NCBI GenBank assembly: GCA_018058095.1
Contig: JAGPCO010000004.1
Coordinates: forward strand, 1-64,000
Source: Kofleriaceae bacterium
Lineage (GTDB): Bacteria > Myxococcota_A > Polyangia > Haliangiales > Haliangiaceae
DNA length: 64,000 nucleotides
Direction of reading: 5' to 3'
The notes under the pieces were generated by a model, which saw only the letters and a list, made by a program, of their open reading frames with translations, ran no database searches and was not told where the DNA came from. Position 1 is the first letter of the stretch. Every line of letters begins with the position of its first letter. The translations under genes were made by a program, and so were the position numbers. Below, one piece after another: positions 4,899-18,012 of this stretch.

Positions 4899-7094
4899 CT
4901 AGAACTTGCTCTCGTAGTGCAGCCACAGCCACAGCTCGGGGCTCGGGCTGCGGGTCTGGGTGCTCATGCGGCTGTCGAGGTAGGTGTAGGCATCGGCGCG
5001 GACGCGCAGGCGGTCGCGCCGGCTGACCGCGTAGGTGGCGTCGACGTAGGTCCAGATCGAGTGCTCGAGGTAGCCGTTGTCGGTCACGTCCTCGTTGAGG
5101 TAGCGGATCCGGCCGCGCAGCCGCCACAGCTTGTTGGGCTTGAACAAGGCGATGGCCCAGGTCGAGACGTCGTTGCGGAAGCCGCCCGGGTGGTTGCCGT
5201 CGTCGAGCAGCTCGTGCTGGAGCTGCCCGGTCAGGGTGAGCTGACGGCTGACGTCGGCGCTGACCCGGCCGATCGTCGTCACCTTCATGCCGGTGCACGG
5301 CACCGGCTCGCCGTTCTCGTCGTTCTCGATCGACACCTCGAAGCACTCGTCGCTGCCGGTCTGGCTCAGGTCCTTGTCGTCGAACTGCGCCCACAGGCCC
5401 CAGCGCACGGTGTCGGTCGCCTGCACGTCGGCCCGCACGTAGGCTGAGACCTTGGGCGCGTCGGCCGACTGGTTGATCCAGGCGTCGAGCGACGCGCGCA
5501 CGCCGACCACACCATGCCGGCCCTGGTAGCGCACCCGCGCGCCCAGCTCGTCGCGCGCACGCTGGCCCTCGAACTCGTCGTCGGCGGCGATCGGCCGGGC
5601 GTACGGGTTGACGTAGTCGATGTCGTAGTACCGCAGCGACGCCTCGAGCTCCTGCTTCTTCGTGCCGGCCACCGTCGCCCGCACGATCGCCGCCGGGCCG
5701 CCCCCGCCCTCGACCGGGCCGGTGCCGTCGGGCAGCTGGTCGAAGCTGTAGGCGACCTCGCCGGTGACGTCGAGCGCGCCGCGGCCGACGCCGGCGTTGA
5801 CGCCGACCGCGCCATAGCGCCCGCCCGGGGGCAGGCGCGACCACTCCTGGGTGTCGAGGTCGAGGCCAGACGTCAGCGGCGTGCGATCGGCGCCGTACCC
5901 GGTCACGCCGGCGTAGTTGCGACGGTCCGCGAAGTACGTGAGGTTGGCCCCGGCCAGCGTCTCCGAGAACATCGCCGGCAGGGTCTGGAAGCTGTACCGG
6001 TCGGTCGGCGTCAGCAGGTCACCGTCGGGGCGCACGTACACCTGCGGCGCCGCGCAGGCCGGGTTGCTGTCGTCGCGCGGGTCGTCACAGGCGCCGCCGT
6101 CGACCAGCTCGTACTGGTAGATCGAGCGGCGCTGGAACGAGCCCCAGCCGTACGCCTGCAGGTAGCCGGCCCCGAGCGTCACGTGTTTGGCCCCGGCCGC
6201 CACGCCCATCAGGGTCTCGCGCCAGCGGAAGTCGGGAGACACGTAGGTGTCGGGCCGCTCGCACACCGCCGCGATCTCGCCGGCCGAGCGCTTGCACTCG
6301 CGCGTGAGCGACTCGTCGAACGACAGCTGGTCGTCGAGGTACAGGCCGTTGGGCGTGTAGTCGCTGGAGTTGTCGAAGGTCAGGCGCTGGCCGAAGCCGA
6401 TGCGGTAGCTGCCGGCGATCGCCGCCAGCTTCTCGTCCTCGTAGCGCACGAACACCTTGGGCACGTGCAGCTGCAGGCTCTCCGGCTCGGCCAGCAACGC
6501 GTCGCGGTTGGGGTCGTACACGATCTCGCCCAGGCGGTATCGCGTCACCGTGGCCGCCGCGCCGGCGCTGACGTGGCCAAGCGCGCTCAGCCGGGCCCGC
6601 ACCCCGATCGGCGGCAGGGTCCGGTCGGTCACGGTGGCGCGGGTCGAGGCGCGGACCCAGCCGTGGGCCTGGCCGGGCCGCCCGGGCGCCGCGCCCAGCA
6701 CCAGGAACGGGGCGATCGCCAGCAGCTTCTCCTCGGTCAGGGCCCCGGCCGCGACCAGGTCGGCCGGGTCGCGGATGAAGCCCTGCTCGGTCCGGTAGGC
6801 CAGGATGGCGTCGACGTCGGCGTAGGTCAGGTTGGGCAGCGAGTACAGCTCGTCGCGCCCCGCGGTGGCCAGCTCGACGCCACGGGTGAGCAGCGCCAGC
6901 AGGGTGTCGAAGGTCTCCTCGCCGATCTGGCGCGAGGCCAGCAGGTCGTACAGGTCCTCCTCCGTCTCGATCGAGACGAAGGCCTCGTACGGGTTGGCCC
7001 CGGCCGGGGTCGCCCGGGTCGCCACCAGGGCGGCCACCAGCATCACCATCGCGCCGGCCCGCCAGCGGGCCACCTGACACCGGTCGAGCCTCAC
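4899..7094 (-). CDS. helix-hairpin-helix outer-membrane beta-barrel protein
   Basis: The mature N-terminus carries two ComEA-like helix-hairpin-helix units: LYSLPNLTYADVDAILAYR, then DPADLVAAGALTEEKLLAIAPF. The remaining ~600 residues alternate polar and hydrophobic residues, are rich in Tyr and Trp, and end in Phe, as outer-membrane barrels do. Similar HHH-plus-barrel proteins are known from Bacteroidota. I chose the GTG at 7094 over the longer frame (to 7232). It gives a normal signal peptide ending around TPAGA, and a TACAGT hexamer lies 9 nt upstream. HHH motifs bind DNA in ComEA; whether they do here is inference. The neighbouring nuclease operon makes surface DNA handling an attractive idea. 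Confidence 0.65.
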   Translation of the reverse strand: MRLDRCQVARWRAGAMVMLVAALVATRATPAGANPYEAFVSIETEEDLYDLLASRQIGEETFDTLLALLTRGVELATAGRDELYSLPNLTYADVDAILAYRTEQGFIRDPADLVAAGALTEEKLLAIAPFLVLGAAPGRPGQAHGWVRASTRATVTDRTLPPIGVRARLSALGHVSAGAAATVTRYRLGEIVYDPNRDALLAEPESLQLHVPKVFVRYEDEKLAAIAGSYRIGFGQRLTFDNSSDYTPNGLYLDDQLSFDESLTRECKRSAGEIAAVCERPDTYVSPDFRWRETLMGVAAGAKHVTLGAGYLQAYGWGSFQRRSIYQYELVDGGACDDPRDDSNPACAAPQVYVRPDGDLLTPTDRYSFQTLPAMFSETLAGANLTYFADRRNYAGVTGYGADRTPLTSGLDLDTQEWSRLPPGGRYGAVGVNAGVGRGALDVTGEVAYSFDQLPDGTGPVEGGGGPAAIVRATVAGTKKQELEASLRYYDIDYVNPYARPIAADDEFEGQRARDELGARVRYQGRHGVVGVRASLDAWINQSADAPKVSAYVRADVQATDTVRWGLWAQFDDKDLSQTGSDECFEVSIENDENGEPVPCTGMKVTTIGRVSADVSRQLTLTGQLQHELLDDGNHPGGFRNDVSTWAIALFKPNKLWRLRGRIRYLNEDVTDNGYLEHSIWTYVDATYAVSRRDRLRVRADAYTYLDSRMSTQTRSPSPELWLWLHYESKF

Positions 7095-7109: not shown

Positions 7110-7213
7110 GCGCACGCTCGTGCGGGTCGTCCGCCGTGGCGCCGGTGATCGACCAGGATCGACGTGCCTGGCAGCCGGTGCGGCCGGCCTCGGGGCCATA
7201 CTGGGGGTGGCCG

Positions 7214-7456
7214 ATGTCGACCACGCAACCACGCAACCCGCTGCACGGGCTCACGCTCGAGGCGATCGTGACCGCGCTGGTCGCCCACTACGGCTGGGCC
7301 AGCCTGGCCACCATGGTGCGGATCCGCTGCTTCGCCGAGAACCCGTCGGTGCCATCGACGCTCAAGTTCCTGCGCAAGACGCCGTGGGCGCGGGCCAAGG
7401 TCGAAGGGCTGTACCTCTTCATGCTGCGCGAGCGCGAGCGCGCCGCGCGGCGCTGA
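7214..7456 (+). CDS. VF530 family protein (DUF2132)
   Basis: This short protein of 80 residues matches the VF530 family almost end to end: NPLHGLTLEAIVTALVAHYGW, IRCFAENPSV and LKFLRKTPWARAKVEGLYL. VF530 members are small helical proteins regarded as probable DNA-binding proteins; no function is established. The ATG at 7214 follows a weak TACTGG hexamer (7199-7204). The gene is divergent from the HHH barrel gene and convergent with the S55 gene. Confidence 0.85.
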   Translation: MSTTQPRNPLHGLTLEAIVTALVAHYGWASLATMVRIRCFAENPSVPSTLKFLRKTPWARAKVEGLYLFMLRERERAARR

Positions 7457-7483: not shown

Positions 7484-9385
<1,902 letters not shown>

Positions 9386-9392
9386 CCCCGCA

Positions 9393-9429: not shown

Positions 9430-9909
9430 TCAGTCGCAGGTGACCACGTCGCACACCCCCCACATGCCCCGACCCGCGGCCTCGGCCTGGGCCTGCAGGG
9501 TCTCGAACTCGATGCGGCGGTCGGCCCCGTTGGGCGGGATGTACAGGGTGCAGGCGTAGCCGCGCTCGACCAGCAGGCGGTTGACGTCCTGGCCATCGAC
9601 GGTGATCCACGCCAGCAGGCGGCCGAAGCGGTCGGTCGGCTCGACGTCGTAGCCGAGCTCGATGGTCTTGCCGAGCACCAGGTCGGTGTTGAACTGCTTG
9701 GCGTTCTGGCCGAAGCAGTCGGTCGCGCCGCCGGTCGACTCCGGCGTGTCGACCAGCAGGTAGCGGATGCGCTCACCGCTGTCGAGGTCGATGGTGTCGC
9801 CGTCGACGACGTTGCTGACCACGGCCGAGGTCGGCCCCGGCGCCGGGCTGCCGCATCCGGCCAGCGCCAGGACCAGCGCCGGCGTCAGGCCGGCGCGGCT
9901 CCGGCTCAC
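9430..9909 (-). CDS. thermonuclease-family (SNase-like) lipoprotein
   Basis: The 159-residue product has a lipoprotein signal (LVLALAGC) and a staphylococcal-nuclease fold. VVDGDTIDL is followed by IRYLLVDTPES, holding the first catalytic Arg and the Glu, and DRFGRLLAWI supplies the second Arg. The domain ends with AEAAGRGMWG. All catalytic residues seem present, so it should cut DNA or RNA outside the cytoplasm with Ca2+. The GTG start overlaps the upstream stop as GTGA, implying translational coupling to the three-LTD lipoprotein. It is last in the 13530-9430 run. Confidence 0.85.
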   Translation of the reverse strand: MSRSRAGLTPALVLALAGCGSPAPGPTSAVVSNVVDGDTIDLDSGERIRYLLVDTPESTGGATDCFGQNAKQFNTDLVLGKTIELGYDVEPTDRFGRLLAWITVDGQDVNRLLVERGYACTLYIPPNGADRRIEFETLQAQAEAAGRGMWGVCDVVTCD

Positions 9910-11672
9910 GGGCACTGCAGGTTGGCCGCCTTCGGCGTGCCCTTGTTGGTGAGCAGGCCGTACGCGGTGGTGGCCGCGCAGAAGTTGGCCTCCACGCTGC
10001 CGGCCACGCTCTCCTGGTCGGGGTCGAGCTGGCGGGCGGCGGCGTTGGGCGCGCTGGTCCACACCACCGCGTCGAGCTCGGCCCCGGCGCTGTCGAGCAC
10101 GCGCAGGTCGCCGCTCGGCACCAGCGAGAAGTTGAAGGTCGCATCGACCGCCGGCAGCATGTCGTTGTCGGCCGGCACCGTCGAGCGCGCGAACAGGGCG
10201 TGGCCGCCGCCGGCGACCGGCTTGCAGTCGACCGAGCGCACGCCGACCGGCATGAGCGTGTCACCGACGCGGTCGAGCTGCAGGTCGTTGAGGTCGAAGC
10301 TGTCGACGCCGACGTTCTTGATCTCGAACCACTCCTGCTTGGTGTCGTCGCCGGCCGGGCTGACCATGAACTCGGTGATGACCAGGTTGCCGGCCTGCGG
10401 CGGCGCGACCGGGCGCAGCGTGGCCCCGTCCATACACATGCCGGCTGGCGGCAGGATCGTGCACTCGGCGTTCATCGCGCCCGGGGTGCCGAGGTCACCG
10501 GCGCCGTACGGCGTGGTGGCGTCGCACCACACACCCGGCATGTCGTTGGCGGTGGCGTCGGCGAAGTCGGGGTCGACCTGCAGGGCGGGGGCGCGCGACG
10601 AGGTCCAGGTGATGGCGTCGATCAACGTGCCGTTCATCGTGAGCTGGACGTCACCCGGGCTCGACACCGAGCCGCCCACCATCGAGAAGCCGAACAGGCC
10701 GTCGACGCGCGGCAGCATGCCGTTGGCGATCGGGTCCATCGACTTGGCGAAGACCAGGCGGGTCCCGGCGGTGACGTGCAGGCAGGCCTCGTCCTGCAGC
10801 TCGTCGCCGGCGCTGCTGTCACCGGCGCGATCGAGCACCAGGCCGTTCAGATCGAGATCGCGGTGGACCTCGACCTCGAACCACTCGCCGGTGGTGTCGC
10901 TGACCGCGCCCGGGCTGGGCATGACCTCGGTGATGACCAGGTCGCCCGGCATGGCCGGGACCGAGGCCCGCATCGTGCCGCCGTCGCTGCACATGCCGGT
11001 GACGATGACCGCGCAGTCCTCGTTCTGCTCGCCCGGCGTGCCGTAGTTGTCGACGTCGAACTCGAGCGAGCCCTCGGGCGTGGCCTCACACCAGTTGGCG
11101 GCGTCGTCGTTGCCGGTGTAGTCGGGACGGGCCCCGCCGTCGTACTGGCGCGACGCGCCAGGCTTGACGTTGTCGTAGATGGCCTCGTCGATGATCGTGT
11201 CGGTACACTTCAGCGTGAGCTTGCCGCCGTTGGTGTTGAACAGGTCGCCCAGGTCGGAGGCGTAGCCGTAGGTGACCCAGCCCGGCCGCAGGTCGGGCAG
11301 GATGTTGCCGAGCACGGCGTAGCCGCCGGCTGGCACCGTCAGCGTGCCCATGATGTGCTGGTTGGGCCGGGTGTCGTCGGGGCGGGCGTGGACGATGGTC
11401 AACCCCTCGAGGTCGATGGCCCCGCCTGAGTTGTTGTAGATCTCGAACCACTCGCGGCCCTCGTCGGCGCCGCTCGAGCCCTCGGGTGCGCTGGCGTCGG
11501 CGAACACCTCGGAGATGACGATGTCCCCGGCCAGCATCGCCTGCTTGCACACGCCGGGGTCGGTGCCGTCGTCGGGTCCACATCCGGCGGCGCAGGCCAG
11601 GAGCGCGCTCAGGCCCAGCCCCAGCAGCGGGCGCGTCGACCAGGGCGAAGGCGGGCGGGAGGCGAAGGCCAT
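9906..11672 (-). CDS. lipoprotein with three lamin-tail domains
   Basis: After a lipoprotein signal (LLACAAGC), three similar units follow. Each starts with (D/N)(I/L)VI(S/T)E(V/F) and contains a (E/Q)WFE(I/V) strand. They also carry LDRxGD-type or comparable segments and end near a WC(D/E)AT- or FCAAT-type Cys motif and LGTPG-like turns. These are lamin-tail (LTD) Ig-like folds, which often accompany nucleases or phosphatases on bacterial surfaces and are thought to be binding modules. ATG 11672 gives the clean signal peptide. A GTG at 11720 overlaps the upstream stop (GTGA) and would add 16 residues. The gene overlaps the downstream nuclease by 4 bp. Confidence 0.8.
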   Translation of the reverse strand: MAFASRPPSPWSTRPLLGLGLSALLACAAGCGPDDGTDPGVCKQAMLAGDIVISEVFADASAPEGSSGADEGREWFEIYNNSGGAIDLEGLTIVHARPDDTRPNQHIMGTLTVPAGGYAVLGNILPDLRPGWVTYGYASDLGDLFNTNGGKLTLKCTDTIIDEAIYDNVKPGASRQYDGGARPDYTGNDDAANWCEATPEGSLEFDVDNYGTPGEQNEDCAVIVTGMCSDGGTMRASVPAMPGDLVITEVMPSPGAVSDTTGEWFEVEVHRDLDLNGLVLDRAGDSSAGDELQDEACLHVTAGTRLVFAKSMDPIANGMLPRVDGLFGFSMVGGSVSSPGDVQLTMNGTLIDAITWTSSRAPALQVDPDFADATANDMPGVWCDATTPYGAGDLGTPGAMNAECTILPPAGMCMDGATLRPVAPPQAGNLVITEFMVSPAGDDTKQEWFEIKNVGVDSFDLNDLQLDRVGDTLMPVGVRSVDCKPVAGGGHALFARSTVPADNDMLPAVDATFNFSLVPSGDLRVLDSAGAELDAVVWTSAPNAAARQLDPDQESVAGSVEANFCAATTAYGLLTNKGTPKAANLQCP

Positions 11673-11716
11673 GCCCTGCTTGTGGCACGTCGGCGTGGCG
11701 GTGTCGGTGGGGCGGG

Positions 11717-12895
11717 TCACGGAGCACCTCCGGGGGCGGTCGAACCAGGCGCGGCCTCGGCCGACGCCGACGGCGCGGCGGCGTCGCCGACCGGCGCGGG
11801 CAGGGTCAGCCCGGGGATGGGCGAGAGCGTGATCTGGCTGGGGCGGTCGACGACGATCTGCAAGGTTTTCTTGTGGTTGTGCCGGTTCTCGTACTCCGTC
11901 ACGACCCCGGTCACGGCGATGAACTCGCCGCGCCAGCCGATCAACCCGGACGCCACCAGGGCGTCCTTGTCGAAGAACACCAGCGGGAAGTCGGAGAACA
12001 TCCGGCGCGACAGGAGGACCCGGGTCGGGCCGCGGTCGCCGATCTTGACCTCGCCGACCGTGCCGAGCAGCGTGACCTGCTTGCCGACCAGGGCCTCGAG
12101 GTGGCGGGTCAGGTCCCACTGCGTGACCGGGAAGTGGTCGGTCCGGCCCTCGGCCTGGCGGTCGAACGCGGCGATGAACTCGGCCCGCGCGTCCCACCAG
12201 GCCTTGCGCTCGTCGTAGTCGCGGTAGCTCATCGCGGTCGGCGCCCAGATGCCGCGCCCGGCTGCGCGCGCCTCCCGCTCGGCGGCGACGAACTCCTGGT
12301 GGTAGCGGCGCGAGTAGCCGTACTTGGAGAAGTACGGGCTCATGCCGGCCCGCACCACCTCGACGTTGTAGTTGACCCAGGTCCCGCGCCGCTGCACCAG
12401 CACGTACGCCAGGTAGCGGTTGTAGCGGTCGCGGATCTCGCGTGCGTCGTCGCGCTCGAGCCGGACCTTGTCGGCGTCGGCGAAGAACTGCTTGCCGAAC
12501 TGCTTGGCGATCTCGCCCATCGGCGTGGCCGCCTTGACCGGGCGCTTGGAGTCGCCGCGCTTGTTGACCAGGTAGGCGTTCCAGTCGGTCTCGACCCCGC
12601 GCTTGTCATCGTCGTTCTTGAACGTCTCCTCGCAGTCGAGGGCGATGAGGCGGAGCGAGCTGTCGAGCCCGTCGACCTTGACGGTGTCGCCGTCGACGAC
12701 CTGGGTCAGGGTGAACTCGCCCAGCAGCAGGCCCGGGGTCTCGAGCTTCTGCAGCGACTTCTGCGCCTGCTTGCGCGAGTAGCGCGCCGAGTGGCCGGGG
12801 CCACACCCGGCGGCCGGGACCAGCGCGGCCGCCAGCACGGCGGCGGTGACGAGGCGGGCCGGCCAGCGCCACGTGGGCCGGGTCGGCGCGGCCAT
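11717..12895 (-). CDS. thermonuclease-family lipoprotein with C-terminal OB-like domain
   Basis: The product (392 residues from ATG 12895) has a lipobox VPAAGC. It then has an enlarged SNase domain: VVDGDTVKVDGLDSS, LRLIALDCEETF with Arg and Glu, and RDRYNRYLAYVLVQ with the second Arg. ARAAGRGIWAP closes the domain. After a Trp-rich linker, residues about 255-350 (GKQVTLLGTVGEV to TGVVTEYE) look like an OB fold, a nucleic-acid-binding type. The domain differs strongly from the shorter nuclease downstream, so the two are not recent duplicates. ATG 12922, inside the previous gene, is an alternative start. The C-terminal tail is Ala/Pro-rich. Confidence 0.8.
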   Translation of the reverse strand: MAAPTRPTWRWPARLVTAAVLAAALVPAAGCGPGHSARYSRKQAQKSLQKLETPGLLLGEFTLTQVVDGDTVKVDGLDSSLRLIALDCEETFKNDDDKRGVETDWNAYLVNKRGDSKRPVKAATPMGEIAKQFGKQFFADADKVRLERDDAREIRDRYNRYLAYVLVQRRGTWVNYNVEVVRAGMSPYFSKYGYSRRYHQEFVAAEREARAAGRGIWAPTAMSYRDYDERKAWWDARAEFIAAFDRQAEGRTDHFPVTQWDLTRHLEALVGKQVTLLGTVGEVKIGDRGPTRVLLSRRMFSDFPLVFFDKDALVASGLIGWRGEFIAVTGVVTEYENRHNHKKTLQIVVDRPSQITLSPIPGLTLPAPVGDAAAPSASAEAAPGSTAPGGAP

Positions 12896-12906
12896 GGCGG
12901 CGATGA

Positions 12907-13530
12907 TCACAGGGTTGGACATGGTGGGTTGGCCGCTCCAGGCGTGCCGGGCGCGGCCAGGCCGGTCCCGTCCACGGTCTCGTTGTTGCACCACGCGGTC
13001 GACACGTCGTTGCCGTCGGCCGTCGGCGGCGTCGGCCCAAGCGAGTAGGTCCCGGTCCGGGTCAGGCCACTGTAGGTCAGGCGATCGATCAGCACGTCGC
13101 AGGCGATGAGGTCGACCGCGGCCGACGGCATGATGGCGCCGGGCAGGTCGCCGGCCACCCCGTAGTCGACGTAGGAGGGGCGGTCGGCGTCGAGGCCGGC
13201 GCCGAGGACCACGTAGCCGTCGGGCGCTACCAGCAGCGAGCGACGGACCAGCACGGTGTCGCTGTCGCTGCCGTCGAGGCGACGCCACAACACGCGCAGC
13301 CCGAGCAGGTCGAGCTCGGTGCCGCTGGCGTTGTACAGCTCGATCCACTGGCCCTGGCTGTCGGATCCGGTCTGCTCGCCGCGCAGCTCGCTGACCACCA
13401 GCTCCCCGGCGACCACGTCGGGGCACAGCGCCGGGGCGGCGTCGCGGGTGCACCCGGCCGGCGCGCCGGCGGCGCCGATGCTGACGCCGACGCCGACCAG
13501 CACGGACCAGGATGGCAGGGCACGGCGCAA
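12907..13530 (-). CDS. lamin-tail-domain lipoprotein, first gene of the nuclease operon
   Basis: The 207-residue product has a signal ending APAGC and a single LTD: GELVVSELRGEQ, GQWIELYNASG, LDLLGLRVLW and a closing AWCNNETVDGTG-type segment. Domain order and Cys positions resemble the units of the three-LTD protein downstream. The start is a TTG at 13530, chosen because TATGCT lies 9 nt upstream and the signal peptide begins at once. It probably heads a run of four tightly packed genes (13530-9430). Confidence 0.75.
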   Translation of the reverse strand: MRRALPSWSVLVGVGVSIGAAGAPAGCTRDAAPALCPDVVAGELVVSELRGEQTGSDSQGQWIELYNASGTELDLLGLRVLWRRLDGSDSDTVLVRRSLLVAPDGYVVLGAGLDADRPSYVDYGVAGDLPGAIMPSAAVDLIACDVLIDRLTYSGLTRTGTYSLGPTPPTADGNDVSTAWCNNETVDGTGLAAPGTPGAANPPCPTL

Positions 13531-13722: not shown

Positions 13723-14796
13723 GTGTCGTCGCTGCCGCTCTCCGTCGACGTCGTCGTGGTCGGTGGCGGCCTGGCCGGGCTGGCCAGCGCTCGCGCCCTG
13801 GCCGGCGTCGGCGCGTCGGTGCTGGTGCTCGAGCGCGAGGCCGCGTGTGGCCAGCACGCCTCGGGCCGCAGCGTCGGCATGGGCCGGCAGCTGACCGACG
13901 ACGATCTCACCACCACGCTGGCGGTGCGCGGCGCGTCGGCCCTGCGGGTGATGGCCGCCGCGCCGGGACGGGCCGCGCTGTGGCGACAGCACGGCTCGCT
14001 CCTGACCTTCGACCGGGCCGACGGCGCGGCCGCCTACGCGGCGCGGGCGGCGCGGGTCGGCGTCGTGGCCGAGCCGATCGGCCCGGCCGAGGTGCGGGCG
14101 CGCTGGCCCCAGGTCGACGGCGGGGCGGTGGCCGCCGGGTTGTGGATCGCCAGCGACGGGTTGATCGACCTGCCCGCGCTGGTGGCGGCGCTGGTCGACG
14201 ACGTGACCGCCGCCGCCGGCGTGGTCGCGTGCGGGTGCGAAGTGACCGACGTGCAGGTCGCCGGCGACGGCGCCACCGTCCACACCGGTCGCGGCGTGGT
14301 GCGGGCGAGCGCGGTGGTCGATGCCGCCGGGGCCTGGGCCGGGACGCTGGCGGCGGCGTGGGGCGCGCGTGATCCCGGGCTGGTGCCGCGGCGACGCCAC
14401 GTGTTCGCGCTGCCGGCGCCGGCGATGGCGCCGAGCGGGCCGTTCTGGTGGCACCTCGGCCAGGCCGAGATCTACCTGCGGCCCGCACCCGGCGAGATCC
14501 TCACCTCGGCCTGCGACGCCGAGGAGGTGCCGCCGCACGATCCCGCCCCGGTACCCGGCGCCGACGTGGCGGCGCGGGCGCGCCTGGCCCAGCACGGCGT
14601 CGCGGCCGGCGACTTCACCCGGACCTGGGCCTGCCTGCGCACCTTCGGCCCTGGCGCCGGCCCGGTCGTCGGCCGCGACCCGGATCGCCCCTGGTTGTGG
14701 TGGGCCGCTGCGCTCGGTGGCCACGGCGCCACCACCGCGCTGGCGATCGGCGCCGACCTGGCCGCGGCGCTGGCGCCGACGCTGCACCCACGCTGA
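13723..14796 (+). CDS. FAD-dependent oxidoreductase, DAO/glycine-oxidase type
   Basis: The 357-residue product opens with the Rossmann FAD motif VDVVVVGGGLAGLASARALA and an acidic strand end VLVLEREAACGQHASG. The middle (residues 90-270) is the substrate domain. The C-terminal TFGPGAGPVVGRDPDRPWLW and GGHGATTALAIGADL return to the FAD site, as in DadA/ThiO/MnmC-like oxidases. It probably oxidises an amino acid or related amine; the substrate cannot be read. The GTG start is preceded by TAGAAG 6 nt upstream, which could be a weak -10 or a Shine-Dalgarno (AGAAGG). It is monocistronic and followed by a dispersed repeat. Confidence 0.8.
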   Translation: MSSLPLSVDVVVVGGGLAGLASARALAGVGASVLVLEREAACGQHASGRSVGMGRQLTDDDLTTTLAVRGASALRVMAAAPGRAALWRQHGSLLTFDRADGAAAYAARAARVGVVAEPIGPAEVRARWPQVDGGAVAAGLWIASDGLIDLPALVAALVDDVTAAAGVVACGCEVTDVQVAGDGATVHTGRGVVRASAVVDAAGAWAGTLAAAWGARDPGLVPRRRHVFALPAPAMAPSGPFWWHLGQAEIYLRPAPGEILTSACDAEEVPPHDPAPVPGADVAARARLAQHGVAAGDFTRTWACLRTFGPGAGPVVGRDPDRPWLWWAAALGGHGATTALAIGADLAAALAPTLHPR

Positions 14797-14817
14797 GCGC
14801 GGCTCGTACCCTGGCAG

Positions 14818-14871
14818 GCAGCCTGCTGAAAACACGGAGCCCGTCCCGTCGGCAGGAGCCGCCAGCACGGG
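14818..14871 (-). repeat. 54-bp dispersed repeat, copy A
   Basis: Read on the minus strand, this 54-bp segment matches 62277-62330 at 51 of 54 positions. It carries GCTCCTGCCGACGGGACGG in the middle and ends in CAGCAGGCTGC. It sits between two convergent genes, a usual place for REP-like elements or bidirectional terminators. Confidence 0.7.
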
Positions 14872-14882
14872 GCCAAGGGCGG

Positions 14883-15218
14883 TTACTTACTCTCGCCGCA
14901 CTTGCCGGCCTCGTCGATCGACTTGGCCGCGAGCATGCAGTGCACCGTCGGGCCGGGCATCTCCTTGCTGCACTTCTTGGTGAACTCGGGACCCTTGGCC
15001 TCGAGCACCGCCGCCTTCTGCTTGCCGAGGTCGGCCTGCATCTCCGGGGTGAGGCCCTTGCCACCACCGGCGGCGCCGATCTCCAGCTCGACCAGGTGGT
15101 CGAGCAGCTTGCCGCACTGGGCCGCCGACGGCGCGTCGGCGCCGCAGCCGGCCGCCGCGGCCAGGAGGGTGACCAGGGCGAGGGACGACGCCAGGACGGA
15201 GGCGGGCAGGCGCAGCAT
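14883..15218 (-). CDS. small Cys-containing lipoprotein
   Basis: This 111-residue product has a lipoprotein signal (LLAAAAGC). The helical mature part has four further cysteines, in AAQCGKLLDHL, TKKCSKEM, VHCMLAAKS and AGKCGESK. Proteins of this shape are common in Myxococcota genomes and have no assigned function. ATG 15218 is used; a TTG nine bases upstream (15227) is an alternative. It follows the TPR lipoprotein by 14 bp on the same strand and is probably cotranscribed with it. Confidence 0.6.
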   Translation of the reverse strand: MLRLPASVLASSLALVTLLAAAAGCGADAPSAAQCGKLLDHLVELEIGAAGGGKGLTPEMQADLGKQKAAVLEAKGPEFTKKCSKEMPGPTVHCMLAAKSIDEAGKCGESK

Positions 15219-15232
15219 CGCCGCCAAGGCTA

Positions 15233-16903
15233 CTACGGATCGGTCAGGCGCAGGGCGGCACGCCGGGCGTCGATGCGGGCCCGCAGCGGTGGGCGGGCCA
15301 GCGCGCGTGCCTCGGTCAAGACCGAGCGGGCCCGGTCGCGCGCGCCGGTGGCAGCCAGCGCCTCGCCGTAGTGCAGCAGGATCTCGGGGTCGCGCGGGGC
15401 CAGGCGGTGGGCCTGGGCCAGCACCCGCACCGCGGTGCCGCCGTCGCCGCGGCGCAGCCGGACCCAGCCCCAGCTGTCGAGCAGGGCCGGCTCACCGGGC
15501 GCCAGGCGGCGGGCCCGGGCCAGGTCGCGCTCGGCCCGGGCCAGGTCCAGGCCGAGCTCGGCCCGCAGGTAGCCGGCCAGGTTCAGGGCCGGCACGAAGT
15601 TGGGGCGCGCCCGCAGCAGCGCGTCGAGCACCACCAGCGCGGCGGCGCGATCGCCCTGGGCCACCTCGAACTCGGCCAGCACCATGGCGGAGTCGGGCCG
15701 CTCGTGATCGAGGCCGCGCCGCAGCGCCCGGCGGGCGGCGCCGACCTCGCCGCGCCCGGCCTGGACCCGGGCCGCGGCCGCGCGTACGGCGACGTCGTCG
15801 GGGAAGCGGGCCGCGATCGGGCCGATCACCTCGGCCGCGGCGTCGAGCTGGCCGCGCTCACGCAGGAGGTCGGTCAGCAGCGCCGCGACCTCGGCGGCCT
15901 GGGCGTCGTCGGCGCCGACGGCGCGCAGCGCCGCGATGGCGTCGTCGTCGTCGCCGCCGAGCTGGGCGGCGCGGGCACGTACCAGCGCGCCCCAGCCGAC
16001 ATCGGCGCCGGCGGTCACCACCGCGGTGGCCGCGGCCGCCTCGTGCAGGGTGAGGTACAGCCGGGCCAGCTCACGCCGGGTCGCGTCGGTGGCCTGGGCG
16101 TCGTCGAGCAGGCCGAGCAGGTCGAGCGCGCCGCGGCGGTCGTCGTGCTCGCACAGCAGCCAGAACAGCTCCTCGGCCACGGCCAGGTCCTGGCCGCTGC
16201 GGTCGAACGCGCTGCGGGTGTGGGTGATGGCCTCGGCCAGGCGGCCGCGGATGCGCAGGACCCGGGCCAGGTCGAGGCGGGCGTCGAGGTGGTCGGGATC
16301 GAGCTCGACCACCTTGCGCAGCGGCGGCTCGGCCTCGGCCAGGCGGTCGCGCTCGGCCAGGTACCGCGCCAGCTCGTAGCGCGCCTCGATCGTCGTCGGC
16401 ACCGCGGCGATGAGGCGGCGCCACACCGCGGCCGCCTCGTCGGGGCGCCGGCGGGCGATGGCGACCGAGGCCTGGCCGAGGTAGCCGCGCTCGTCGCGCG
16501 GGGCCAGCCGGGTCGCGCGCGCGTAGGCGGTTCCGGCCTCGGCCAGGGCGCCGGCCCGGCGCGCCAGCTCGGCGCTGACCAGCCAGATCTCCGGCTCGCC
16601 GGGCCAGCGCCGCTCGCCGGCGCGGATGACCGCGCGCGCCTGCGCCTGCTCGCCGGCCTTGGCCAGGGCATCGGCCAGGCTGGCGGCGATCATCGGCTGG
16701 TCGGGCGCGGCGGCGGCGGCGGCGCGCAGCTCGTGGACGGCCAGGGTGTGATCGCCCTCGAACAGCGCGACCCGCGCCCGCAGGTAGTGCGCGTAGGCGT
16801 CGCGCGGCAGCGGCGGCAGCGGCGTCGTCGGTGCCGGTCGGCCGCACCCGGCCAGCCCGAGCGCGACGGCCAGCACGGCGGCGAGCGGCGCACCCGGTCT
16901 CAC
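15233..16903 (-). CDS. TPR-repeat lipoprotein
   Basis: The 556-residue product has a lipobox GLAGC and then is almost entirely tetratricopeptide-like helical pairs, with recurring A-x-x-x-Y/L-A-x-L-x-P spacing (for example AYARATRLAPRDERGYLGQA and LRKVVELDPDHLDARLDLA). I estimate ten or more repeats. It should be a periplasmic scaffold anchored to a membrane. GTG 16903 is chosen because the signal peptide starts there and TACAAC lies 6 nt upstream. It is followed by the small lipoprotein gene. Confidence 0.75.
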   Translation of the reverse strand: MRPGAPLAAVLAVALGLAGCGRPAPTTPLPPLPRDAYAHYLRARVALFEGDHTLAVHELRAAAAAAPDQPMIAASLADALAKAGEQAQARAVIRAGERRWPGEPEIWLVSAELARRAGALAEAGTAYARATRLAPRDERGYLGQASVAIARRRPDEAAAVWRRLIAAVPTTIEARYELARYLAERDRLAEAEPPLRKVVELDPDHLDARLDLARVLRIRGRLAEAITHTRSAFDRSGQDLAVAEELFWLLCEHDDRRGALDLLGLLDDAQATDATRRELARLYLTLHEAAAATAVVTAGADVGWGALVRARAAQLGGDDDDAIAALRAVGADDAQAAEVAALLTDLLRERGQLDAAAEVIGPIAARFPDDVAVRAAAARVQAGRGEVGAARRALRRGLDHERPDSAMVLAEFEVAQGDRAAALVVLDALLRARPNFVPALNLAGYLRAELGLDLARAERDLARARRLAPGEPALLDSWGWVRLRRGDGGTAVRVLAQAHRLAPRDPEILLHYGEALAATGARDRARSVLTEARALARPPLRARIDARRAALRLTDP

Positions 16904-16909
16904 CGCCCG

Positions 16910-16915
16910 GTTGTA
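16910..16915 (-). promoter_or_regulatory. putative -10 (TACAAC) of the TPR lipoprotein gene
   Basis: TACAAC on the minus strand lies 6 nt before GTG 16903. The identical hexamer at the same spacing precedes the pseudokinase gene at 59997. Confidence 0.45.
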
Positions 16916-16932
16916 GCACCTCGCGCGCGTGA

Positions 16933-18012
16933 TCAGCGCAGCCACGGGCTGCGCCGCAGCAGCGCGGCCTGCGCGGCGCTGAGCTGGTCACTGTCGCCGT
17001 TCATCAGGTTGGGCTGGTCGGGGCTGGTGTCGTTCAGGCCGTCGTCGAGGCGGGCCGCGCTGACCAGCCGGTCCTCGGGGTGAGCCAGGCCGAGGTAGTG
17101 GCCGAGCTCGTGCGCGGCGACCCGGGCCAGCCGCGCCGGGTCAGCCTGCCGACCGACGACCACGCCGGAGTAGTAGGTGTCGGCGCGCGGCGGGCCCGGC
17201 GTGCCCAGGCTGAGGCCGGCCACCCCGACCGGCAGCCCGTCGACGACGAACAGCGGCAGCGCCGGGCTGGCCGGCCCGCGCCCGAGCAGGCCGGGCAGCT
17301 GGGCCGCCGCCGACGACGGCACCTCGCTCGGCTCGTGCTGGAGCTCCAGCCCCGGTGGCGCCGCCTGATCGAGCACCAGGCGCTGATCGATCACCAGCTC
17401 GAGGCCGGCGCCGGCCAGGATCGTCGTCAGCGGCGCGACCAGCGCGTCGAGGTCGGGCCCGGTCGCGGCCGGACCGATCGACACCAGCGCCAGGTGCAGC
17501 CGGCGCGCGTCGGTGGCCGGCGCGGCATCGACCTCGACGGTGATCGGGCCAGGCCGGTCGGCCAGGGCGACCAGGGTGAGCGGCCCGGGCGGCGGGGTGA
17601 TCGTCGGCGTGGTCGGCCAGATCAAGGTGTACAGGCCCTGGCGCGCGGTCTGGCGCAGCGCGCCGGCGACGCGACCGCCGCGGTGGTCGATGGCCTCGGC
17701 CAGGATCTGCGCCGGTGCGCCGACACTGGCCGGCAGGCCGATCAGGTCCGGCTGATCGCCGATGGCCAGGGCGCCGAGCGCGTAGCGCGCCCCCGGATCG
17801 CCGCGCACGACGATGGCCAGCGATCGCGTCGCCGGCGGGATGACGAACGTGAGCGGCGGGCTGCGCCCGTCGGCGCCGATGACGCTGGCCTGACGCCACG
17901 ACCGGGTCGGCGCGCTCGGGCCGGCGGGATCACCGTCGGCGCGTTCGCCGCCGCAGCCGACGGCGAGCAGCAGGCCCAGCAGCGGCGCCGGCGACCACGG
18001 CCCGGCCCGCAC
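16933..18012 (-). CDS. metzincin-type metalloprotease lipoprotein
   Basis: The 359-residue product has a lipobox LLAVGC (Cys20). Residues 301-311 are [11 protein letters not shown], a complete HExxHxxGxxH metzincin zinc site, followed by a segment (LMNGD) that may provide the Met-turn. The first 250 residues form a beta-rich prodomain or binding domain of unknown type. It is likely an exported, lipid-anchored protease. The GTG start is one base beyond the stop of the upstream NicO gene, so the two are probably coupled; a functional link is not obvious. Confidence 0.75.

Follow-up and report, generated by a model that had tools for sequence, protein, structure and literature searches.

What joins a run of lipoprotein genes in which lamin-tail-domain (LTD) proteins alternate with thermonucleases? 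Exported nucleases go with the use of DNA by bacteria (PMC8289736), and for the Kofleriaceae locus studied here a preliminary description had proposed a surface machine that binds and degrades DNA or RNA, either for prey killing or for phosphate and nucleotide feeding. The sequence that we analysed (the window) is a 64,000-nt stretch of contig JAGPCO010000004.1 from this Kofleriaceae bacterium, and all coordinates given below are window positions.

Organization of the lipoprotein genes

Four adjacent genes on the minus strand make up the alternating array. Gene A (12907-13530) starts at a TTG codon and encodes a lipoprotein of 207 aa with a single LTD; gene B (11717-12922, with an alternative start at 12895) encodes a lipoprotein of 401 aa in which an SNase domain is followed by a C-terminal OB-like domain; gene C (9906-11720) encodes a lipoprotein with three LTD stretches and starts at a GTG or, alternatively, at an ATG at position 11672; and gene D (9430-9909) encodes a small SNase lipoprotein of 159 aa with four conserved cysteines. 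Pfam SNase (PF00565, cut-off 21) matched B with 51.6 bits and D with 64.6 bits, and Pfam LTD (PF00932, cut-off 34.3) matched C with 83.2 bits over three copies. The LTD of A matched with 24.4 bits (E 3.9e-5), below the cut-off; A aligns with the C-type LTDs across relatives, where its orthologues (34-55% identity) occupy the same position. The lipobox cysteine, read from the sequence, lies within PAGC in A, AAGC in both B and C, and LAGC in D. Judged by these lipoboxes and export signals, A to D are all exported lipoproteins, the lipobox itself giving neither the membrane nor the face on which they reside. Using a simple pattern, a lipobox was also found in 44 of 54 B, 46 of 56 D, 92 of 117 LTD and 1 of 82 E proteins (E is described below), in a set of sequences less strictly made unique than that of the E-centred counts. 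The gene content proposed in the preliminary description is therefore borne out by coordinates, Pfam matches and lipoboxes, with the LTD of A below the cut-off.

The junctions had been described as touching or overlapping. C and D share the GTGA at 9906-9909, and this overlap is firm because D offers no usable signal peptide shorter than the one read here. The other two overlaps depend on the choice of start codon. The GTGA overlap between B and C at 11717-11720 holds only with the GTG start of C, since a start at the ATG leaves a gap of 44 nt; A and B overlap by 16 nt when B starts at 12922 and are separated by 11 nt when it starts at 12895.

Conservation of the array and association with a barrel gene

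This 7.57 Mb genome encodes no SNases besides B and D. Among 36 genomes (the source genome and relatives), 32 contained SNases, and most genomes of the same genus, family and order carried two of them 2.4-2.9 kb apart, in loci that keep the order and strand of A-B-C-D at about 35-70% identity. Because this order recurs across Kofleriaceae and other Myxococcota, and because B and D are the sole SNases of the genome, the arrangement of A to D is beyond chance.

A fifth gene, E (4899-7073, minus strand, start uncertain between 7049 and 7073), encodes a protein with a ComEA-like helix-hairpin-helix (HhH) domain, to which a large predicted beta barrel is fused. A-B-C-D followed by E was found in relatives belonging to the same family or the same taxonomic order, and also in a different family of this class. 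The unit is also present in Nannocystaceae (Plesiocystis, Enhygromyxa and Paraliomyxa) and in other Myxococcota, as found by sampling the phylum and by a pattern scan of 84,980 species (63 loci), whose records were labelled almost wholly myxobacterial or deltaproteobacterial. An Oligoflexales origin for one locus, L190, was rejected, as its genome and G070 give one and the same contig match, and the placement of G070 is in the phylum of the source genome. Variants exist: A or D is absent in some families, and the order becomes E-B-C-D in a few lineages. B-type SNase-OB lipoproteins with neither LTD nor E occur in family f24 (L123, L124 and L127), in L123 after an OmpA-family outer-membrane gene.

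Median distances from the upstream stop codon to the first profile-matched residue were 3 nt for LTD to B, 142 nt for B to LTD (a value that includes the signal peptide), 36 nt for LTD to D and 32 nt for D to E, calculated on the less strictly unique sequences mentioned above. The suggestion that the pairing is selected thus agrees with an order conserved at near-zero spacing over many species; a lack of conserved order in relatives, named beforehand as a refuting outcome, was not what we observed. Across 235 genomes, B and a close E were both present in 16, B alone in 2, E alone in 1 and neither in 216 (Fisher p about 1e-21, uncorrected for kinship). From two partly overlapping routes we gathered 86 sequence-distinct E loci, 45 of them with enough flanking sequence; an LTD gene lay near E on the same strand in 43 of these 45. 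E is a core member of the unit.

Two other genes lie in this region. One, between D and E (7484-9388, minus strand), carries an S55/SpoIVB-like peptidase domain (23.9 bits versus a cut-off of 25); the other (7136-7456, 110.7 bits) belongs to the VF530 DNA-binding family and is on the plus strand, opposite to A-E. Neither gave a tblastn match in the 40 loci of relatives that were examined, and both were rejected as members of the unit. E directly follows D in most relatives, and the S55-like gene, having no match in their loci, is probably a later insertion. Thus, of the neighbours said to fit a nucleic-acid theme, the HhH barrel belongs to the conserved unit and VF530 does not. Among the conserved neighbours we identified neither a nucleotide transporter nor a phosphatase. 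Upstream of A, genes for a DAO oxidoreductase, a small lipoprotein and a TPR protein (13723-16945) are common to loci L060, L061 and L062, from three other genera of the family (G018-G020), and were not found in the loci of same-genus genomes; D is closest to that of G018 (about 70%). The placement of the contig, or a transfer of the region, may deserve checking.

Two nucleases of separate ancestry with intact active sites

Equivalents of the catalytic residues R35, E43 and R87 were kept in all 65 unique B and all 56 unique D sequences, including those of this locus, so that the Arg-Glu-Arg triad noticed earlier in both nucleases proves to be invariant. The equivalents of D19 and D21 were also invariant in both sets, and that of D40 was D or N. 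B and D share with the staphylococcal-type thermonucleases the fold, the metal ligands and the catalytic residues; they differ from them in being lipid-anchored, in the OB-like domain added to B and in the presence of two lineages within one operon. The AF2 model of B (pLDDT 84.5) aligned to staphylococcal nuclease with a VIA-align Z of 17. Its OB-like domain is suggested by strands in the model at residues 263-366 (pLDDT >90) and by the sequence pattern; Pfam listed no OB match for B, nor did the structure searches, in which hits to the SNase domain took up the whole list. In D, cysteines C65, C120, C153 and C158 are invariant, as expected of an exported protein.

In a tree of 62 SNases, built by a quick search with SH-aLRT as its sole support measure, B and D fell into separate clades, B together with other SNases of the phylum (support 88) and D elsewhere. 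These are old clades, which rejects a recent duplication of an LTD-SNase pair, as had been judged from how different the two proteins are, and implies that the pair was assembled.

Acidic LTD proteins and a predicted outer-membrane barrel

LTDs occur at eight places in this genome, three of them within the A-D operon, and C has mostly 2 to 5 LTD repeats in relatives. The LTD proteins are strongly acidic (median pI about 4.05, net charge about -11 per 100 residues). So is the HhH domain of E (median pI 4.09, net charge -11 per 100 residues), which matched PF12836 (HHH_3) with 28.2 bits against a cut-off of 27; HHH_3 was present in 19 of 19 E homologues. Similarity of this domain to ComEA (8DSS) was detectable (E 3.9e-6). 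Both ComEA and E carry the tandem HhH of PF12836, but in E it is acidic and fused to a barrel, and its hairpin in this branch reads PNLT or similar where ComEA 8DSS has PGIG; some divergent members of E have PGLT. Because of this strong acidity and the non-canonical hairpin, DNA binding by the LTDs or by the HhH domain of E would be questionable, and a DNA-handling role of E appears doubtful. D is acidic too, and of these B alone is basic. Xds of Vibrio cholerae stays active as a nuclease and keeps its localisation when its LTD is deleted, whereas the OB domain is required (PMC6746945). Taken together, these features suggest that B is the likely nucleic-acid-contacting subunit, and that the LTDs and E's HhH domain probably serve in scaffolding or assembly. 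As nucleic-acid binders of the proposed machine, the LTDs look unlikely given the low pI and the dispensability of the LTD in Xds.

In the AF2 model of E (pLDDT 76), about 24 long strands close into a barrel. E also has a signal peptide and, in most homologues, a C-terminal F, and it is predicted to be an outer-membrane beta barrel. The closest folds were the usher pores FimD/PapC (VIA-align Z 14.7, 8-10% identity); Pfam matched no usher family among 19 E sequences. The barrel region is covered by neither a Pfam nor an NCBIfam family, and no NCBIfam family was found for A, C or E. Transfer of E on plasmids was rejected, as no plasmid match was found.

The nuclease next to E is exchangeable

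A recognised exported nuclease stood beside E in 40 of the 45 flanked loci, of the SNase type in 36 and of the PLD/Nuc type in 5; the other five loci lacked a recognised nuclease, a number in which some neighbours may have been missed. E proteins of a second set, from other families and more divergent, again had multi-LTD neighbours with a different nuclease: some of these loci carried a D-like SNase, and others a small PLDc_2 lipoprotein directly before E. The best solved match of the PLDc_2 protein was endonuclease Nuc (1BYR, 1e-22), and NucT, implicated in purine salvage and in the transformation of Helicobacter pylori (PMC5714352), also matched. The HKD motif was intact in 6 of 6 PLDc_2 proteins. 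At two further loci (L204 and L214), metallo-beta-lactamase proteins, two per locus, adjoin E and LTD genes; the one examined, an exported protein from L214, resembles the metallo-beta-lactamase domain of ComEC. That one nuclease family can stand in for another while the partner genes stay the same is the strongest argument for nucleic-acid cutting as the shared function. The alternating pair-of-pairs, noted earlier as an unfamiliar arrangement, does recur in relatives and is one version of a more general system of barrel, multi-LTD protein and nuclease, which can do without A or D and can take nucleases of different types.

Two further arrangements were seen. In L201, a divergent E with no LTD neighbour is directly preceded by another gene (5981-6502 of that locus), whose protein has ComEA-like HhH repeats of the canonical form. 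On a Klebsiella oxytoca plasmid (L227), a thermonuclease gene adjoins a phospholipase D family gene, the two types that interchange in E loci.

Discussion

In our reading, A-B-C-D-E form a conserved operon whose products make up a nuclease complex anchored in the outer membrane and feed the cell by cutting external nucleic acid; we give this reading a probability somewhat above one half (about 0.55). The acidic LTD lipoproteins A and C would act as scaffolds that keep the nucleases on or close to E. The centre of the complex would be E itself, a beta barrel of the outer membrane whose N-terminal part is a ComEA-like HhH domain; the basic SNase-OB protein B and the acidic, disulfide-stabilised SNase D would cut extracellular DNA and/or RNA; and the products would supply the cell with phosphate, nucleotides and carbon, with fragments possibly entering through E. 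This reading is supported by the conserved content, order and spacing, the intact active sites, the export and lipidation signals, the barrel prediction and the replacement of SNase by PLD/Nuc. The following points we infer: the proteins come together in a single complex, this complex is turned outwards, fragments pass through E, and the cell uses the system to feed. We found no support for prey killing.

The closest known system is Xds, an exported, cell-associated nuclease of V. cholerae with LTD and OB domains as here (PMC6746945), to which ExeM of Shewanella oneidensis is related in kind. Xds and ExeM combine LTD, OB and EEP domains in a single chain, whereas here the domains are split over separate genes without an EEP; the A-E unit further differs from Xds in having separate LTD and nuclease lipoproteins, an enzyme of the SNase or PLD type and a dedicated outer-membrane barrel. 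In Riemerella anatipestifer, the barrel protein RA0C_RS04915, its surface partner RA0C_RS04920 and the HhH protein RA0C_RS02645 form a similar combination and are all essential for transformation (PMC8459023); these are separate proteins with no LTD or SNase reported. The PADLOC candidate defence family PDLC01096 (SNc+LTD) links SNase and LTD as here, but names them as a combination in one model while here they are separate genes; only the SNase parts of B and D matched it, and A and C did not. Our literature search found no description of a combination of LTD, HhH-barrel and exported nuclease.

A broader reading, which we hold tentatively, is that the loci represent a previously undescribed Myxococcota outer-membrane import machine, in which an HhH-barrel and LTD core works with exchangeable SNase, PLD/Nuc or ComEC-like metallo-beta-lactamase cutters and DNA or RNA fragments are taken across the membrane. 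A DNA-uptake apparatus for natural transformation, with the nucleases nicking or trimming bound DNA and E serving as a pore with a ComEA-like ratchet that hands DNA to ComEC, seems to us rather unlikely. The match of the E HhH domain to ComEA speaks for it, as do the ComEC encoded in this genome, the ComEC-like exported metallo-beta-lactamase beside E and LTD genes at two loci, the canonical ComEA-like gene that precedes E in L201, the requirement for barrel and HhH proteins in R. anatipestifer transformation (PMC8459023) and the role attributed to NucT in H. pylori. However, the E HhH domain is acidic and its hairpin degenerate, a pair of active SNases would be apt to degrade the DNA needed for transformation, and no competence gene lies within the conserved unit. 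The presence of ComEC was rejected as a test for transformation, being nearly universal in the relatives (32 of 36 genomes, some of them lacking the cluster) and therefore not discriminating.

Alternatively, the main task of E might be to assemble or export the LTD and nuclease lipoproteins, as a channel by which they reach the surface, and not to serve as a pore for nucleic acid. Its fold is nearest to the chaperone-usher pores, no neighbour of E is as constant as the LTD gene and an acidic HhH domain suits protein binding better than DNA binding; yet no Pfam usher family matched, and fold similarity between large barrels at 8-10% identity is generic, which leaves this option improbable. Little probability likewise falls to a protective or matrix role, in which the surface nucleases would degrade phage or foreign DNA or remodel matrix DNA. 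B and D do match the PADLOC candidate family, but through the SNase part alone, as general SNases may too; no defence gene was identified near the locus, E has no plasmid match, and the DAO, small lipoprotein and TPR genes upstream are neighbours common to the genera of L060-L062. Finally, the absence of A and D in some families, and of E and LTD beside B in f24, would fit genes for surface proteins that are loosely grouped and do not work together. Order, strand and spacing kept over many families, and a nuclease replaced by one of another type beside the same partners, make such mere co-location very improbable.

To return to the feeding complex, the A-E unit links LTD proteins, HhH-barrel proteins and exported nucleases, whose bacterial roles are poorly tied together, and the cluster, kept in many myxobacteria, looks like a system not described before by which cells deal with DNA or RNA from outside. 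If this reading is true, bacterial LTD proteins would gain a testable role, an outer-membrane barrel dedicated to nucleic acids would be named, and the unit would suggest how predatory and scavenging myxobacteria use external DNA or RNA.
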